Assembly (NCBI GenBank): GCA_945965395.1
Contig: CAMFND010000154.1
Location: 1-57,041, forward strand
Direction of reading: 5' to 3'
Origin: an uncultured Bacteroides sp.
Lineage (GTDB): Bacteria; Bacteroidota; Bacteroidia; Bacteroidales; Bacteroidaceae
DNA: 57,041 bases
Part shown: positions 7,521 through 12,930 of the stretch, one piece after another
How the letters are laid out: each line of letters opens with the position of its first letter
Numbering within the stretch: position 1 is the first letter of the stretch
The notes under the pieces: model-generated
What the model saw: the letters and a program-made list of their open reading frames with translations, nothing else
What the model was told of the DNA's origin: nothing
Database searches by the model: none
Position numbers and translations under genes: made by a program

Positions 7521-8690
7521 TTAAAGAGCTTCGTAAGCTGCTTTCAACTGCTGCAAGGCTTTTTCAAGTGTCACACGCGGACAGCCTACATTCATTCGCA
7601 TAAAGCCTGCTCCTTCCTTACCAAACATCTCTCCATCGTTCAGCGCCAATCCGGCCTTGTCTACAAAGAAAGCATTCAATGCCTCATGCGACAATCTCAG
7701 TTCGCGACAATCCAGCCAAATCAGGTAAGAAGCCTGCGGACGCATCACCTTAATCTTAGGAGTATGTGCTTTTGTATAGGCATCTGCATAGTCAATATTT
7801 CCCTGAATATAAGCCAGACACTGTTGCAGCCACTCTTCTCCTTCAGTGTAAGCAGCGGTTACGGCCGGCCATGCAAACACATGTCCCGCATTCAGCTCTC
7901 CGGCATCCAGATAAGTAACGAAGCGTGAACGAAGTCCTTCATTGTAAATAATGGTATGCGAAGCAGCTACTCCCGGCATATTGAAAGTCTTGCTGGGTGC
8001 CATAAAAGTAACGGAGTTGTTGCGGGCTTTTTCTGACACCATGGCAAAAGGCAGATGCTGATAAGGAGGTAAAGTCAGGTCAGCATGAATTTCATCCGAA
8101 AAGACAATCACATTGTCATCGGCACAGATTTCGGCCAGTTCCTGCAACTCTTCTTTCTTCCAAACCACTCCTCCCGGGTTGTGAGGATTACACAGAATCA
8201 GTACCCGTACTCCCTTTATGGAACGGCGAATCAAATCCAAATCCATGCGATAATGTCCGTCCACTTCTTTCAGCGGACATTCCACCAGGCGACGGTTATT
8301 GCGTGTCACCAGCCAGGCAAAAGGATGGTACACCGGAGGCATAATCATAATCTTGTCGCCCGGCTTTGTGAAACAGTTGATAGCCATTCCCAAACCCGGT
8401 ACAATGCCTGGTACAAAATTGATTTCTTCCTTCTCTACCGACATGCCATAACGTTTCTTTACCCATCCGATAATAGACTGATAGTAATCGTCTGAACGGA
8501 AAGTATATCCTAACACCGGATGTTCGCAACGTTTGCGAATGGCTTCCAAAATAAACGGAGGTGTGGCAAAATCCATATCGGCCACCCACATCGGAATCAA
8601 ATCAGACTTTCCCCATACGTTTACCATACCGTCTACTTTCTCGCAACACGTGCCGCGACGGTCAATCACTTCATCAAAATTATAGTTCAT
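7521..8690 (-). CDS. MalY/PatB-type PLP aminotransferase (C-S lyase)
   Basis: A 389-residue fold-type I PLP enzyme of the MalY/PatB branch. Members act as cystathionine beta-lyases or aminotransferases. The opening NFDEVIDRRGT, the MWVADMDF block (34-41), PVYHPF (119-124), NPHNPGG (168-174), SDEIHADL (198-205) and the PLP lysine Lys234 in SKTFNMPG are all diagnostic of this branch. A longer upstream frame is rejected because a -7 box lies inside it. The gene is monocistronic and divergent from the aromatic amino acid operon. Its likely job is cysteine/methionine metabolism, but a transaminase role cannot be excluded. Confidence 0.85.
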   Translation of the reverse strand: MNYNFDEVIDRRGTCCEKVDGMVNVWGKSDLIPMWVADMDFATPPFILEAIRKRCEHPVLGYTFRSDDYYQSIIGWVKKRYGMSVEKEEINFVPGIVPGLGMAINCFTKPGDKIMIMPPVYHPFAWLVTRNNRRLVECPLKEVDGHYRMDLDLIRRSIKGVRVLILCNPHNPGGVVWKKEELQELAEICADDNVIVFSDEIHADLTLPPYQHLPFAMVSEKARNNSVTFMAPSKTFNMPGVAASHTIIYNEGLRSRFVTYLDAGELNAGHVFAWPAVTAAYTEGEEWLQQCLAYIQGNIDYADAYTKAHTPKIKVMRPQASYLIWLDCRELRLSHEALNAFFVDKAGLALNDGEMFGKEGAGFMRMNVGCPRVTLEKALQQLKAAYEAL

Positions 8691-8737
8691 GTTCTTATTT
8701 GTTTTGGCTATTTTACAAATGAAATATCTCTGTACAA

Positions 8738-8745
8738 CAAAGGTA
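8738..8745 (-). promoter_or_regulatory. -7 box of the PatB-like gene
   Basis: The minus strand reads TACCTTTG, a perfect TAnnTTTG, 47 bases before the ATG at 8690. Confidence 0.55.
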
Positions 8746-8815
8746 AGAAAATACATTCATATCCGCCATTCTGAGGCTATTTTTTAAAAATAAGAAGAAA
8801 AAGTTTGTCGGAACA

Positions 8816-8845
8816 TTTGTTTTTTAAAGAAAAGTATTACATTTG
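8816..8845 (+). promoter_or_regulatory. promoter of the Phe/Tyr leader and operon
   Basis: TTTG at 8816-8819 and TACATTTG at 8838-8845 are separated by 18 bases, an almost ideal Bacteroides primary sigma promoter. Transcription should begin near 8850, about 25 bases before the leader peptide start. Confidence 0.75.
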
Positions 8846-8875
8846 CAGCAGAAATAACAACAAAATAACAAACAA

Positions 8876-8965
8876 ATGAGAACATTTACATCATACTTCT
8901 TCTTTTACTTTTATTTCTTTTACTTTAGCAATGAAGTGAAGCGGGAGTTTGCATGCATACGTTAA
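8876..8965 (+). CDS. Phe/Tyr-rich leader peptide
   Basis: A 29-codon ORF between the operon promoter and the terminator. Residues 7-17 read YFFFYFYFFYF: eleven consecutive Phe or Tyr codons (seven Phe, four Tyr). Residue 4 and residue 25 are also Phe. The codons lie at 8894-8926 and the TAA at 8963-8965. Such runs are the sensing element of classic attenuation, where a ribosome stalls when the charged tRNA is scarce. The operon behind it makes both phenylalanine and tyrosine, matching the two amino acids in the run. It is not expected to have a function as a protein. Confidence 0.85.
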   Translation: MRTFTSYFFFYFYFFYFSNEVKREFACIR

Positions 8966-9007
8966 TAGAGAAAACAAGAATGAAATGATAATACAAAGTC
9001 CCGCTTC
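8938..9007 (+). promoter_or_regulatory. antiterminator pairing of the Phe/Tyr attenuator
   Basis: Bases 8938-8951 (GAAGCGGGAGTTTG) can pair with 8994-9007 over 14 positions with a single mismatch at 8947/8998. The second arm is the left arm of the terminator, so the two structures exclude each other. The first arm starts 11 bases after the Phe/Tyr codon run and ends 11 bases before the leader stop codon. A ribosome stalled in the run would leave it free, while one that reaches the stop would cover it. Confidence 0.75.
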
Positions 9008-9027
9008 GATGGAGCGGGACTTTTTTT
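8995..9027 (+). terminator. attenuator terminator before pheA
   Basis: An 11-bp perfect stem (AAAGTCCCGCT 8995-9005 with AGCGGGACTTT 9013-9023), loop TCGATGG, and a run of seven T at 9021-9027. It lies 15 bases before the pheA start codon, in the transcribed leader, so it must be read through for the operon to be expressed. Confidence 0.9.
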
Positions 9028-9042
9028 ATAGTTACACAAAAG

Positions 9043-9885
9043 ATGAAGAAGATAGCCATACAAGGAGTTCCGGGCTCGTATCACGACATTGCAGCCCATA
9101 AGTTTTTCAAGGATGAGGAAATCGAACTGATTTGCTGCAACACATTCGAAGAGGTGTTCGATAACCTGAAAAAAGACAGCAGCATCATCGGAATGATTGC
9201 CATTGAGAATACGATTGCCGGAAGCCTCCTTCACAATTACGAATTGCTCAGAGACAGTGGAGCTACGATTATCGGAGAACATAAATTACGAATCAGCCAC
9301 AGCATCATGTGTCTACCTGGAGAAGACTGGAGCACACTGACAGAAGTAAACTCCCATCCGGTAGCACTGGCACAATGCCGGGATTTCCTACAACACCACC
9401 CTCAGCTGAAAGTGGTAGAAACGGAAGATACCGCAGGCAGTGCACGCGACATCAAGGAAAAGGGATTGAAAGGACATGCTGCCATCTGCTCCAAATATGC
9501 AGCCGAGCTTTACGGCATGAAAATCTTGCAGGAAGGCATTGAAACCAACAAGCATAATTTCACCCGCTTTCTGGTGATATGCGATCCCTGGATGGCTGAC
9601 GAACTGAAAGACCGTTCCAAAATCAACAAGGCCAACATTGTTTTCTCCCTGCCTCATAATGAAGGAAGCTTGTCACAAGTGTTATCCATCTTTTCGTTCT
9701 ATCACATAAACCTGACCAAAATACAATCGTTGCCCATCATCGGGCGGGAATGGGAATACCTGTTCTACGTAGACGTGATGTTCAACGACTATTTGAGATA
9801 CAAACAATCCATTGACGCAGTAATGCCATTAACCAAAGCACTTAAAATTTTAGGAGAATATGCAGAAGGAGAATCAACCTTATAA
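9043..9885 (+). CDS. pheA: prephenate dehydratase
   Basis: A 280-residue cytosolic enzyme converting prephenate to phenylpyruvate, the committed step to phenylalanine. The catalytic part (1-180) opens with IAIQGVPGSYHDIAA and contains the IENTIAGSL motif (54-62) and NKHNFTRF with the catalytic TRF (174-176). An ACT domain follows (about 197-275). There is no N-terminal chorismate mutase; that activity is fused to the DAHP synthase two genes on. In the ACT domain the usual GALV and ESRP effector-site motifs read GSLS and QSLP, so phenylalanine feedback may be altered. The gene is first in the operon, right behind the attenuator, and overlaps the next gene by 26 bases. Confidence 0.93.
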   Translation: MKKIAIQGVPGSYHDIAAHKFFKDEEIELICCNTFEEVFDNLKKDSSIIGMIAIENTIAGSLLHNYELLRDSGATIIGEHKLRISHSIMCLPGEDWSTLTEVNSHPVALAQCRDFLQHHPQLKVVETEDTAGSARDIKEKGLKGHAAICSKYAAELYGMKILQEGIETNKHNFTRFLVICDPWMADELKDRSKINKANIVFSLPHNEGSLSQVLSIFSFYHINLTKIQSLPIIGREWEYLFYVDVMFNDYLRYKQSIDAVMPLTKALKILGEYAEGESTL

Positions 9886-11050
9886 GATAGAGCCGGCCAG
9901 CCGACTGAACCACGTCAGCGAATACTACTTCAGCCGGAAACTGAAAGAAGTGGCACGGATGAATGCCGAAGGGAAAAATGTCATCAGCTTAGGAATCGGA
10001 AGCCCGGACATGCCGCCTTCAGAAGAGACCATCAACGTGTTGTGTGAGAATGCCCGCAAGCCGGACGCACACGGCTACCAGCCTACGGTGGGAATACCGG
10101 AACTGCGCAAAGCCATGGCCGACTGGTATAAAAGATGGTATGACGTAGACCTGGACCCGGCAACGGAAATCCAGCCACTTATCGGTTCGAAGGAAGGTAT
10201 CCTTCACGTCACACTTGCACTGGTGAACCCCGGTGACCAGGTGCTGGTTCCAAACCCCGGATACCCTACCTACACTTCACTGAACAAGATTTTAGGAAGT
10301 AAAATCGTGAACTACAACCTGCGGGAAGACAATCACTGGCAACCGGACTTTGAAGAACTGGAAAAGATGGATTTAAGTCGGGTAAAAATCATGTGGACCA
10401 ACTATCCCAACATGCCGACCGGTGCCAATGCCACCATGGAGCTTTACGAGAAGCTGGTGGATTTTGCACGCCGTCACCAGATTGTCATTGTCAACGACAA
10501 CCCGTACAGTTTCATTCTGAACCGCAAACCTATCAGTATCCTGAACGTACCGGGAGCCAAAGAATGCTGTATTGAATTCAATTCCATGAGCAAGAGTCAC
10601 AACATGCCGGGATGGCGCGTAGGTATGCTGGCAACCAATGCCACTTTCGTACAGTGGATTCTGAAAATCAAGAGCAACATTGATTCCGGTACTTTCCGCC
10701 CCTTGCAGCTGGCAGCCGCACAAGCTTATCACAACAGCGCAGAATGGCACGAAGAAGCCAATATCCAGACTTACGCACGTCGCCGGAAACTGGCTGAAGA
10801 AATCATGCATACCTTGGGATGTACCTTCGACCCGGAACAAGTAGGTATGTTCTTGTGGGGACGCATTCCAGACCACTATGCCGACGTAGAAGAACTGACC
10901 GAGAAAGTCTTGCACGAAGCCCGCGTGTTCATCACTCCGGGATTCATTTTCGGCAGCAACGGAAAACGGTATATCCGTATTTCACTCTGCGCCAAAGAGC
11001 CTCAACTGGAAGAGGCGTTAAAACGAATCCAGGACATCGTGAATAAATAA
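9860..11050 (+). CDS. class I/II aminotransferase of the aromatic operon
   Basis: A 396-residue fold-type I PLP transaminase. Motifs include GIGSPDMPPSE (substrate loop), NPGYPTY, NDNPYSFI and the PLP lysine Lys245 in SMSKSHNMPGWRVG. In sequence style it resembles the LL-diaminopimelate/aspartate aminotransferase group. Its place between prephenate dehydratase and DAHP synthase argues that it adds the amino group to phenylpyruvate and 4-hydroxyphenylpyruvate, the last step to Phe and Tyr. The start at 9860 lies 26 bases inside pheA, in another frame, and gives the expected N-terminus (KIEPASRLNHV), so translational coupling is likely. Confidence 0.88.
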   Translation: MQKENQPYKIEPASRLNHVSEYYFSRKLKEVARMNAEGKNVISLGIGSPDMPPSEETINVLCENARKPDAHGYQPTVGIPELRKAMADWYKRWYDVDLDPATEIQPLIGSKEGILHVTLALVNPGDQVLVPNPGYPTYTSLNKILGSKIVNYNLREDNHWQPDFEELEKMDLSRVKIMWTNYPNMPTGANATMELYEKLVDFARRHQIVIVNDNPYSFILNRKPISILNVPGAKECCIEFNSMSKSHNMPGWRVGMLATNATFVQWILKIKSNIDSGTFRPLQLAAAQAYHNSAEWHEEANIQTYARRRKLAEEIMHTLGCTFDPEQVGMFLWGRIPDHYADVEELTEKVLHEARVFITPGFIFGSNGKRYIRISLCAKEPQLEEALKRIQDIVNK

Positions 11051-11073: not shown

Positions 11074-12144
11074 ATGGAACAGTTAGATTTACTCCCTATT
11101 GAACTGGAAGGTGTTTCTCAGGAACGCCCGTTGATCATTGCAGGCCCTTGCAGTGCCGAAACAGAAGAACAAGTTATGACTACAGCCAAGTCACTGTCTG
11201 ACAAAGGTATCAAGATATTCCGTGCCGGAATCTGGAAACCCCGCACCAAACCGGGAGGTTTCGAAGGTATCGGTGTGGAAGGACTTTCCTGGCTGAAAGA
11301 AGTGAAGAAGGAAACCGGCATGTACGTAGCCACGGAAGTAGCTACCGCCAAGCATGTGTACGAATGCCTGAAAGCTGATGTAGACATCGTATGGATTGGT
11401 GCCCGTACTACTGCCAACCCGTTTGCCGTACAGGAAATTGCCGATGCCCTGAAAGGCGTAGACATTCCCGTCTATGTGAAGAATCCGGTAAACCCTGATC
11501 TGGAGTTGTGGATTGGTGCATTGGAACGCATCAACAATGCCGGACTGAAACGTATCGGTGCCATTCATCGCGGATTCTCTTCATACGACAAGAAAATTTA
11601 CCGCAACCTGCCGCAGTGGCACATTCCTATCGAACTGCGCCGCCGCATCCCGAATCTGCCTATTATCTGCGACCCGAGCCACATCGGCGGAAAACGTGAA
11701 CTGATTGCTCCGCTGTGCCAGCAGGCCATGGACTTAGGTTTCGACGGACTCATCATCGAATCACACTGCAATCCGGAATGTGCATGGAGCGATGCCGCAC
11801 AGCAGGTTACTCCCGATATTCTTGACTACATCCTGAACCTGCTCGTAATCCGTTCTGAACATCAGACTACAGAAAACCTGAACGAGCTTCGCCGGCAGAT
11901 TGACGAATGTGACAACGACCTGATGGACATACTCGCCAAACGTATGCGTGTGTGCCGTGAAATCGGTACCTTCAAAAAGGAACATAACATGACCATCCTG
12001 CAGACCGGACGTTACAATGAAATTCTGGATAAACGCGGTGCACAAGGCTCACTTTGCGGCATGGATTCCGATTTCGTCAAACAAGTATTCGAGCTGATTC
12101 ACGAAGAAAGCGTGCGCCAGCAAATGGAAATCATCAACAAATAA
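11074..12144 (+). CDS. DAHP synthase-chorismate mutase fusion
   Basis: A 356-residue bifunctional enzyme acting at the first step and at the branch point of aromatic synthesis. Residues 1-260 are a type I-beta (KDO8P synthase-like) DAHP synthase with IIAGPCSAETE, IWKPRTKPGGFEGIG and the metal-site block CDPSHIGGKRE (Asp200). From residue 268 (NLNELRRQIDECDNDLMDILAKR) an AroQ-type helical chorismate mutase follows to the end, with the expected Arg, Lys and Glu positions. C-terminal mutase fusions of this kind occur in Bacteroidetes, and the mutase domain can act as the regulatory unit of the synthase. It is the third gene of the operon, 23 bases behind the aminotransferase. Confidence 0.92.
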   Translation: MEQLDLLPIELEGVSQERPLIIAGPCSAETEEQVMTTAKSLSDKGIKIFRAGIWKPRTKPGGFEGIGVEGLSWLKEVKKETGMYVATEVATAKHVYECLKADVDIVWIGARTTANPFAVQEIADALKGVDIPVYVKNPVNPDLELWIGALERINNAGLKRIGAIHRGFSSYDKKIYRNLPQWHIPIELRRRIPNLPIICDPSHIGGKRELIAPLCQQAMDLGFDGLIIESHCNPECAWSDAAQQVTPDILDYILNLLVIRSEHQTTENLNELRRQIDECDNDLMDILAKRMRVCREIGTFKKEHNMTILQTGRYNEILDKRGAQGSLCGMDSDFVKQVFELIHEESVRQQMEIINK

Positions 12145-12156
12145 CAGAAACAAAGC

Positions 12157-12930
12157 ATGAAAATATTGATTTTAGGAGCCGGGAAAATGGGCTCCTTCTT
12201 TACCGATGTATTGAGTTTTGAACATGAAGTCGCCGTGTACGATGTGAATCCCCAACGCCTGCGCTTTATGTACAACTGCTACCGATTCACCAAGCTGGAA
12301 GAAATCAGCGAATTCAAGCCGGAGCTGGTCATCAATGCTGCCACGGTAAAATACACACTCGATGCTTTCCATCAGGTCCTTCCGGTGCTGCCGAAGGACT
12401 GTATCATCAGCGACATTGCTTCCGTGAAAACCGGATTAAAGGAGTTTTATGAAAACTGCGGCTTTCGCTACGTGTCTACCCACCCGATGTTCGGTCCCAC
12501 ATTTGCCAACCTCGACAAACTGAGTACGGAGAATGCCATCATCATTAAGGAAGGTGACCACCTGGGAAAGATTTTCTTCAAGGACCTTTACCAGCACCTG
12601 AAGCTGAACATCTTTGAATACACCTTCGAGGAGCACGACGAAACGGTGGCTTACTCCTTATCTATCCCGTTCGTATCTACCTTTGTGTTTGCAGCCATTA
12701 TGAAACACCAGGATGCACCGGGTACTACCTTCAAGCGCCACATGGCCATTGCGCAAGGTGTGCTGAGCGAAGATGATTTTCTGCTACAGGAAATCTTGTT
12801 CAATCCGCGCACTCCGGCTCAGGTAGAAAATATCCGTACGGAGCTAAACGAACTGTTAGATATTATCAGCCGGAAAGATGCAGAAGGCATGCATGCCTAT
12901 CTTAGCAAGATTCGAAAAAATATCAAATAA
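12157..12930 (+). CDS. tyrA: prephenate dehydrogenase
   Basis: A 257-residue NAD(P)-dependent enzyme that converts prephenate to 4-hydroxyphenylpyruvate, the committed step to tyrosine. The N-terminal Rossmann motif is ILGAGKMGSFF, the acidic end of strand two is YDVNPQR, and the prephenate-binding histidine motif is THPMFGPTFAN (108-118). The helical dimer domain follows. It lacks an ACT or mutase domain, so control probably rests on the attenuator and on the DAHP synthase fusion. It is the last gene of the operon, 12 bases behind the synthase, and a strong terminator follows. Confidence 0.92.
   Translation: MKILILGAGKMGSFFTDVLSFEHEVAVYDVNPQRLRFMYNCYRFTKLEEISEFKPELVINAATVKYTLDAFHQVLPVLPKDCIISDIASVKTGLKEFYENCGFRYVSTHPMFGPTFANLDKLSTENAIIIKEGDHLGKIFFKDLYQHLKLNIFEYTFEEHDETVAYSLSIPFVSTFVFAAIMKHQDAPGTTFKRHMAIAQGVLSEDDFLLQEILFNPRTPAQVENIRTELNELLDIISRKDAEGMHAYLSKIRKNIK

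Follow-up and report, generated by a model that had tools for sequence, protein, structure and literature searches.

The leader peptide pheL of E. coli reads Phe only, and the anatomy of the enteric system comprises a Phe-codon leader followed by an antiterminator and a terminator that have one arm in common. Other leaders read several amino acids: that of ilvGMEDA reads Ile, Val and Leu, and that of thrABC reads Thr and Ile. In some Bacteroidetes/Chlorobi, attenuators were reportedly predicted by Vitreschak et al. in 2004.

Within the same phylum, a 2021 study of Flavobacterium psychrophilum (PMC9723704) presents strong clues that amino-acid operons are controlled by leader-peptide attenuation; as a separate finding, it describes a structured 5' element of pheA that is conserved in Flavobacteriaceae and has no Rfam hits. 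Short ORFs reminiscent of leader peptides are described for Bacteroides thetaiotaomicron 5' UTRs in PMC7366714, whose main text contains no pheA. A search of the open-access literature revealed no description of a Phe/Tyr leader in Bacteroidia among the matches listed, and little was found in print on such control in this class. A first-pass annotation of the DNA analysed here had stated that no Bacteroides case was described; among the matches listed this holds for a Phe/Tyr leader, but the attenuation inferred for Flavobacterium, the pheA 5' element and the ORFs of B. thetaiotaomicron narrow the statement. The kind of switch is already known; what is added here is its spread through the Bacteroidia and a tandem form.

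The window, i.e. the whole stretch of DNA analysed, comprises 57,041 nucleotides and is contig 154 (CAMFND010000154.1) of a 3.72 Mb, 161-contig assembly, which was also scanned for further leaders. The host genome is Phocaeicola plebeius-like, and the pheA product of the window is 99% identical to that of P. plebeius DSM 17135. On the forward strand, pheA, coding for prephenate dehydratase (9043-9885; PF00800, E 2e-57), is followed by the genes for a class I/II aminotransferase (9860-11050; PF00155, E 1e-61), a DAHP synthase fused to chorismate mutase (DAHPS/CM, 11074-12144; PF00793 and PF01817) and a tyrA-like prephenate dehydrogenase (12157-12930; PF02153 (PDH_N), 35.2 bits at a cut-off of 26.5). 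Pfam matches above cut-off for all four genes, the fourth of them weak, bear out the four-gene aromatic operon pheA-aminotransferase-DAHPS/CM-tyrA that had been read from the sequence. The NCBIfam matches of all four genes lie below cut-off, including the prephenate dehydrogenase models for the fourth gene and the best matches of the aminotransferase, which are LL-diaminopimelate aminotransferase-like. If translated from its first ATG, the aminotransferase ORF would share 26 bases with the end of pheA (9860-9885), which would permit translational coupling. The divergent neighbour on the reverse strand (7521-8756) is a PatB family C-S lyase (TIGR04350, 490 bits at a cut-off of 340) and not an aromatic gene.

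Among related loci with at least 4.2 kb of downstream sequence, the order aminotransferase, DAHPS/CM, tyrA was found in 111 of the 119 with at least 53% pheA identity, and the tyrA query matched 2 of the 45 below this identity. One locus (L254) displayed an extra ORF between aminotransferase and DAHPS/CM, by eye a putative prephenate dehydrogenase. A variant operon (L259) with the leader MHKQYTYTNFWFFYFYDKSRD consists of pheA, DAHPS/CM and two ORFs that by eye resemble EPSP synthase and chorismate synthase.

Upstream of pheA, a Bacteroides-type promoter (8816-8845) combines TTTG at 8816-8819 with the TAnnTTTG element TACATTTG at 8838-8845, and both elements agree with the B. fragilis consensus TAnnTTTG/TTTG as quoted in PMC7366714. 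This promoter had been called near-ideal, which is true of the Bacteroides consensus only, because an E. coli-type promoter scan revealed none. Of 219 loci, 181 have a TAnnTTTG motif within 110 nt 5' of the leader (6.3% of mononucleotide shuffles do), and in 159 of the 219 TTG is found 20-24 nt 5' of this motif (shuffles: 0.6%). The leader ORF (8876-8965) encodes the peptide MRTFTSYFFFYFYFFYFSNEVKREFACIR in 29 sense codons by translation. Its codons at 8894-8926 form an unbroken run of eleven Phe/Tyr codons (Y F F F Y F Y F F Y F), the putative sensor; 20,000 mononucleotide shuffles of 8757-9042 gave such runs of at most seven codons. The antiterminator 5' arm GAAGCGGGAGTTTG (8938-8951) begins 11 nt past the last Phe/Tyr codon and lies inside the leader ORF, whose stop codon ends 14 nt beyond the arm. 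By complementarity and fold it is predicted to pair, at 13 of 14 positions, with the 3' arm CAAAGTCCCGCTTC (8994-9007), which is common to the terminator. The intrinsic terminator hairpin (8995-9023), the sole terminator-like site found in 8600-9200, has a stem of 11 perfect pairs (8995-9005 with 9013-9023), or 13 if extended loopward with G-T, and is followed by T at 9024-9027, giving seven T in all (9021-9027). A possible protector (1:2) hairpin between the codon run and the antiterminator 5' arm is predicted for 8894-8951. Leader, unbroken codon run, antiterminator with one mismatch in 14, common arm and terminator with an 11-bp stem and T7 had all been noted in the first-pass annotation and were recovered unchanged. 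Both the leader RNA (8858-9027, z -3.9) and the stretch 8930-9007 (z -4.4) fold better than 200 of 200 dinucleotide shuffles. The window thus holds a Phe/Tyr-codon leader and an intrinsic terminator ahead of the first gene and, judged by sequence and position, a putative mutually exclusive antiterminator whose 5' arm would be freed by a stall at the regulatory codons.

We consider it highly likely that this region is a ribosome-mediated transcription attenuator which reads charged tRNA-Phe and tRNA-Tyr together. Transcription would start just past 8845, with the ribosome trailing RNA polymerase along the leader. If Phe-tRNA or Tyr-tRNA were scarce, the ribosome would stall within the 11-codon run and, because its leading edge would stop before 8938, the arm 8938-8951 would be free to capture 8994-9007 once transcribed; no terminator would form, and pheA-aminotransferase-DAHPS/CM-tyrA would be transcribed. 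If both amino acids were plentiful, the ribosome would lie over the arm (A site at about 8933-8957) while 8994-9007 emerges or, alternatively or additionally, the hairpin between run and arm would form behind the ribosome; with the arm occupied, 8995-9005 would pair with 9013-9023 and transcription would stop. Because the Phe and Tyr codons are interleaved, we infer an OR logic, in which a shortage of either amino acid alone should suffice. The model is based on anatomy, conservation, covariation and arm-to-run spacing, which support the ribosome-mediated attenuation of the aromatic operon as originally proposed; its start site, leader translation, stalling, kinetic capture and response to each amino acid are what we infer from them.

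A pheA match was obtained in 186 of 393 genomes of the order, 269 of 299 of the family and 258 of 296 of the phylum, and of 486 relatives among named genome contigs, 80 loci were retained. The resulting sample is neither random nor independent, because the best-matching loci and hand-picked stretches across families were taken. By tblastn, pheA was located in 265 loci; removal of one locus with 15 nt of upstream sequence (L204) and merging of identical 200-nt upstreams left 239 distinct upstream regions, the window's own included, which are mutually related and not independent. An ORF with at least 6 Phe/Tyr per 10 codons was present in 230 of the 239 pheA upstreams as compared to 32 of 1195 dinucleotide shuffles, and one with at least 7 in 220 as compared to 8. 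The nine upstreams below 6 in 10 (L246, L029, L177, L198, L185, L218, L150, L260 and L258) still displayed no leader over 900 nt, bar a score of 6 far upstream in L150.

As a control, the regions upstream of pheA were scanned in 40 loci from other classes of the phylum, and 39 of them contained at most 4 Phe/Tyr in 10 codons. The sole exception, L292, carries a Phe/Tyr leader with a score of 10, MKQNYKQARYYFYFYFYFFSSPGGYCLF, possibly acquired by horizontal transfer of pheA together with the leader. Because pheA has an N-terminal extension of 30 codons or more at 11 of these 40 loci, part of the first scan fell within coding sequence; a second scan, from the furthest pheA start, gave at most 5 Phe/Tyr in 10 for 39 of the 40 and still 10 for L292. 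Five of the 239 loci (L147, L150, L153, L170 and L264) also come from other classes, and the leader is present in four of them and absent in L150. Based on the 230 of 239 upstreams and the outcome of the control, the Phe/Tyr leader is, as sampled, a feature of the Bacteroidia and of a few pheA loci elsewhere.

A leader together with a usable downstream terminator was placed in 222 of the 239 loci. The 17 left out are the nine with fewer than 6 Phe/Tyr and eight without a usable terminator call (L058, L090, L091, L095, L096, L155, L188 and L195), several of which have a detected hairpin that overlaps the run. The complementarity of the post-run region to the terminator 5' arm exceeded that of all 40 mononucleotide shuffles in 154 of the 222 loci, and in 183 it exceeded that of 39 or more of the 40. 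A swap test over all 222 loci is an unselected and therefore unbiased measure; here the own partner outscored the average of 40 swapped-in partners in 211 loci (mean score 23.0 vs 17.3; 82/84, 65/68 and 64/70 in the three pheA identity groups). The first-pass annotation had named conservation of the codon run and of the alternative stems in orthologous leaders as a check on its reading. This check was largely passed, with the run absent in 9 of 239 upstreams and the antiterminator equalled by at least 2 of 40 shuffles in 39 of 222 loci.

Covariation was analysed in two alignments, A1 (60 sequences) and A2 (50 sequences), whose 110 rows are the 154 best loci minus near-duplicates. Changes on both sides were found in 9 of 14 antiterminator pairs in A1 and 7 of 9 in A2, counts that are favoured because the rows were chosen from the 154 loci with good complementarity, and in 10 of 13 (A1) and 8 of 10 (A2) terminator pairs. 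The covariation score exceeded all 500 shuffles and all slid versions for antiterminator and terminator in both alignments. Of the other measures for the A1 antiterminator, the count of further pair types was equalled or exceeded by 414 of 500 shuffles and the count of pairs with both-side changes by 50 of 500; for the A2 antiterminator, a version slid by +2 gave 8 both-side pairs as compared to 7 for the true register.

The antiterminator arm begins 9-14 nt past the last Phe/Tyr codon in 186 of the 222 loci. Among the 154 best loci, the standard deviation of the run-to-arm distance was 1.96 nt, as compared to 12.9 for stop-to-arm and 8.1 for terminator-to-arm; the stop codon ended 5' of the arm in 32 loci, within the arm in 12 and 3' of it in 110, with median run-to-arm distances of 12, 11.5 and 11, respectively. 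The run-to-arm spacing is fixed at 9-14 nt, independent of the stop codon. An E. coli-like ribosome footprint reaches 13 nt to the 5' side of the P codon and 12 nt beyond the first base in the A site. When the last Phe/Tyr codon occupies its A site, such a ribosome would cover no base of the arm in 154 of 183 leaders and at most 5 in the others, so the arm spacing fits an E. coli-like footprint.

How the arm would be hidden when both amino acids are plentiful was read differently in the first-pass annotation, which saw a design simpler than the enteric four-arm one, with no protector hairpin and with a ribosome waiting at the stop codon that itself masks the antiterminator arm. With an E. coli-like footprint, a ribosome at the stop codon would cover half of the arm or more in 102 of 183 leaders, e.g. 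in short leaders that end just before it, and stop-codon masking could act in leaders whose stop adjoins the arm. Against this as a general explanation, less than half of the arm is covered in the other 81 leaders, and none of it in 25 of those. In the window, a ribosome at the stop codon (8963-8965) would cover 8947-8975 but not 8938-8946, and constrained folding still yields the antiterminator; blocking would here occur in transit. In constrained folds of the nascent RNA, for which the 5' end was assumed at 8851, the antiterminator forms before the terminator 3' arm exists: fully for A sites from the start codon to 8927, at 0.60 for 8930, not at all for 8933-8957, at 0.46 for 8960 and fully again at the stop codon, 8963. 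A stall in the run would therefore leave the arm accessible, and a ribosome moving over the post-run codons would hide it. Furthermore, the hairpin between run and arm is predicted with -13.8 kcal/mol (8876-8951) or -13.1 kcal/mol (8894-8951), and over the 154 best loci the run:arm region is slightly stabler than synonymous permutations (mean z -0.82, kinship uncorrected). Because this hairpin is predicted, there is no clear sign that the design is simpler than that of enteric leaders. From the failure of stop-codon masking in the window and the predicted run:arm hairpin together, the classical four-segment scheme is the model we favour, and masking at the stop codon without a protector hairpin appears unlikely as the general mode.

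The attenuator model depends on the order in which the structures form, which folding does not prove. For the full leader, the terminator (-20.5 kcal/mol) is predicted to be more stable than the antiterminator (-19.4 kcal/mol), and its pairing probability was at least 0.80 at every ribosome position tried; because the terminator wins at equilibrium for all these positions, the switch must be kinetic. Ribosome-free RNA also forms the antiterminator before the terminator 3' arm appears, so default termination is not predicted by folding alone and, according to the model, would need a ribosome or early run:arm pairing.

The residues in the runs bear on what is sensed. Over the 222 loci the runs contain 1114 F and 785 Y, and both residues occur in 219 of them. 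A leader that senses Phe only, with the Tyr codons as tolerated passengers, is conceivable: a single change converts TTY into TAY, the pheA leader of E. coli reads Phe alone, Phe outnumbers Tyr in the runs, and the operon begins with pheA. We consider it improbable. Tyr averages a fraction of 0.41, 0.44 and 0.41 of Phe+Tyr in the three similarity groups, and the other residues whose codons lie one change away from those for Phe seldom occur in the run windows (S 40, C 4, L 4, V 3, I 2), although this rarity arises partly by construction because the windows were chosen for Phe/Tyr density, which leaves the Phe:Tyr split unaffected. In the 84 loci with at least 75% pheA identity (67 distinct leaders), Phe and Tyr interchange at run positions -8 to -5, while -2 is Tyr in 84/84, -3 Phe in 84/84 and -4 Tyr in 80/84. 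The operon also makes Tyr. Joint sensing of Phe and Tyr, the Tyr part being read from the codons, is the best reading, and the earlier proposal that one leader senses both amino acids is thereby supported at the level of codon content.

Trp was considered as a third input and rejected for now. W occurs in 28 of 76 distant leaders (below 55% pheA identity) and in 5 of 146 closer ones; however, TGG up to the run end is no commoner in frame than out (20, 8 and 19 by frame in distant leaders; 4, 2 and 4 in closer ones).

At gathering threshold, a search of the window against Rfam revealed no matches, including T-box or riboswitch families, and in 20 related loci none at the pheA element; the only match there was Flavo-1, elsewhere in L161. 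The window scored 34.5 bits against RF01859 (Phe_leader), whose gathering score is 55, with E 3.4e-4 in a 351-base search; membership of this family was rejected at this sub-threshold score, and no match to it was found in the 20 related loci. Control by a metabolite riboswitch, a T-box, an RNA-binding protein or a nascent-chain arrest peptide, in which the run would be incidental or an arrest motif, has nothing direct in its favour, the conserved parts being the run and two short alternative stems. Besides the Rfam results, the leader peptides vary among relatives except in Phe/Tyr content and, in many, in the codons that overlap the arm, and the arm spacing agrees with a ribosome footprint, so that such control is very improbable. 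Hardly more credible is a constitutive terminator that trims pheA expression or yields a trans-acting sRNA of ~170 nt with no amino-acid response, which would agree with the terminator winning at equilibrium in the full leader but leaves the codon run, the fixed run-to-arm distance and the covariation between arm and terminator unexplained. The pheA element is very probably a real and widespread attenuator, ordinary in kind, with an aromatic dual input.

In 15 of the 239 loci, from ten families by taxonomy labels, two consecutive Phe/Tyr leaders were found within 480 nt upstream of pheA. Both terminators were found in ten of these loci, from seven families (L014, L015, L017, L018, L174, L193, L214, L227, L252 and L253); the others are L011, L012, L024, L030 and L263. 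In the ten loci with two terminators, TAnnTTTG lies within 70 nt before the first leader in 10/10 and before the second in 0/10, and the distance from the first terminator to the second leader is 12-28 nt in nine and 148 nt in L253. The arms paired well, with a score reached by at most 4 of 100 shuffles, in 9 of 10 first leaders and in 7 of 10 second leaders. We hold the chances to be evenly balanced that a widespread family of aromatic attenuators that read Phe and Tyr through a single leader has in several lineages turned into a double gate. If true, two serial attenuators behind one promoter would multiply their read-through probabilities and sharpen the response. No case of tandem biosynthetic leader peptides was found among the matches listed in the open-access literature.

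Six other gene heads of the same genome were scanned, and three revealed leader candidates. An Ile/Leu/Val leader, MITLNTLVNLAVLHIIRVVVVAPRGEKVSCM, and a terminator precede ilvD (L322, G000:C100:51000-54000, at 1381-1530), and its arm lies 11 nt past the Val run, the same geometry as in the pheA leader. A His-rich leader, MILNTVHHRHHHYLTVHTVG, stands before hisG (L320, G000:C82:1-2000, at 897-959), with a hairpin and a T-run downstream in the fold that were not called by the terminator detector. The leader MNLSTVNTFFWWRRLQLQRS lies with a strong terminator before a 404-codon ORF (L321, G000:C90:8000-12000, reverse-complement 306-446), which directly precedes the best chorismate-binding (trpE-like) gene; the best arm for this Trp leader is weak (score 11.5). 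The gene-head scan revealed no leader for the homoserine dehydrogenase gene and two other chorismate-binding genes. Three other sites in the genome with seven consecutive TWY codons lie within or next to long ORFs or on the strand opposite them and, judging by the ORF lists, none precedes an aromatic gene. Short TWY runs alone are not diagnostic, because a reversed control pattern is about equally frequent in 20 genomes.

The comparative evidence suggests that leader-peptide attenuation of Phe and Tyr synthesis is widespread in Bacteroidia, human gut genera included. The run-to-arm spacing of 9-14 nt offers a simple signature for finding further leaders in this group, which the ilvD leader fits, and the interleaved run and the tandem forms make dual-input and two-stage attenuation testable in B. 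thetaiotaomicron or P. vulgatus.

Among the described systems, the pheA 5' element of F. psychrophilum (PMC9723704) comes from the same phylum and precedes the same gene as the element in the window, but in the accessible text of that paper neither a Phe/Tyr codon run nor alternative stems are described for pheA. The ilvGMEDA and thrABC leaders are alike in that one leader reads several amino acids made by its operon; the window differs from them in the aromatic pair Phe/Tyr, in its origin from Bacteroidia and in belonging to no Rfam family at threshold. The enterobacterial pheA leader (RF01859) has in common with the window a leader with Phe codons, an arm shared by antiterminator and terminator and a position directly before pheA, and the (1:2) hairpin of run and arm is likewise predicted in the window. 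In contrast to the enterobacterial leader, the window interleaves Tyr codons with the Phe codons and precedes a four-gene operon for Phe and Tyr, and its antiterminator arm lies within the leader ORF, with the stop codon ending 14 nt past the arm.
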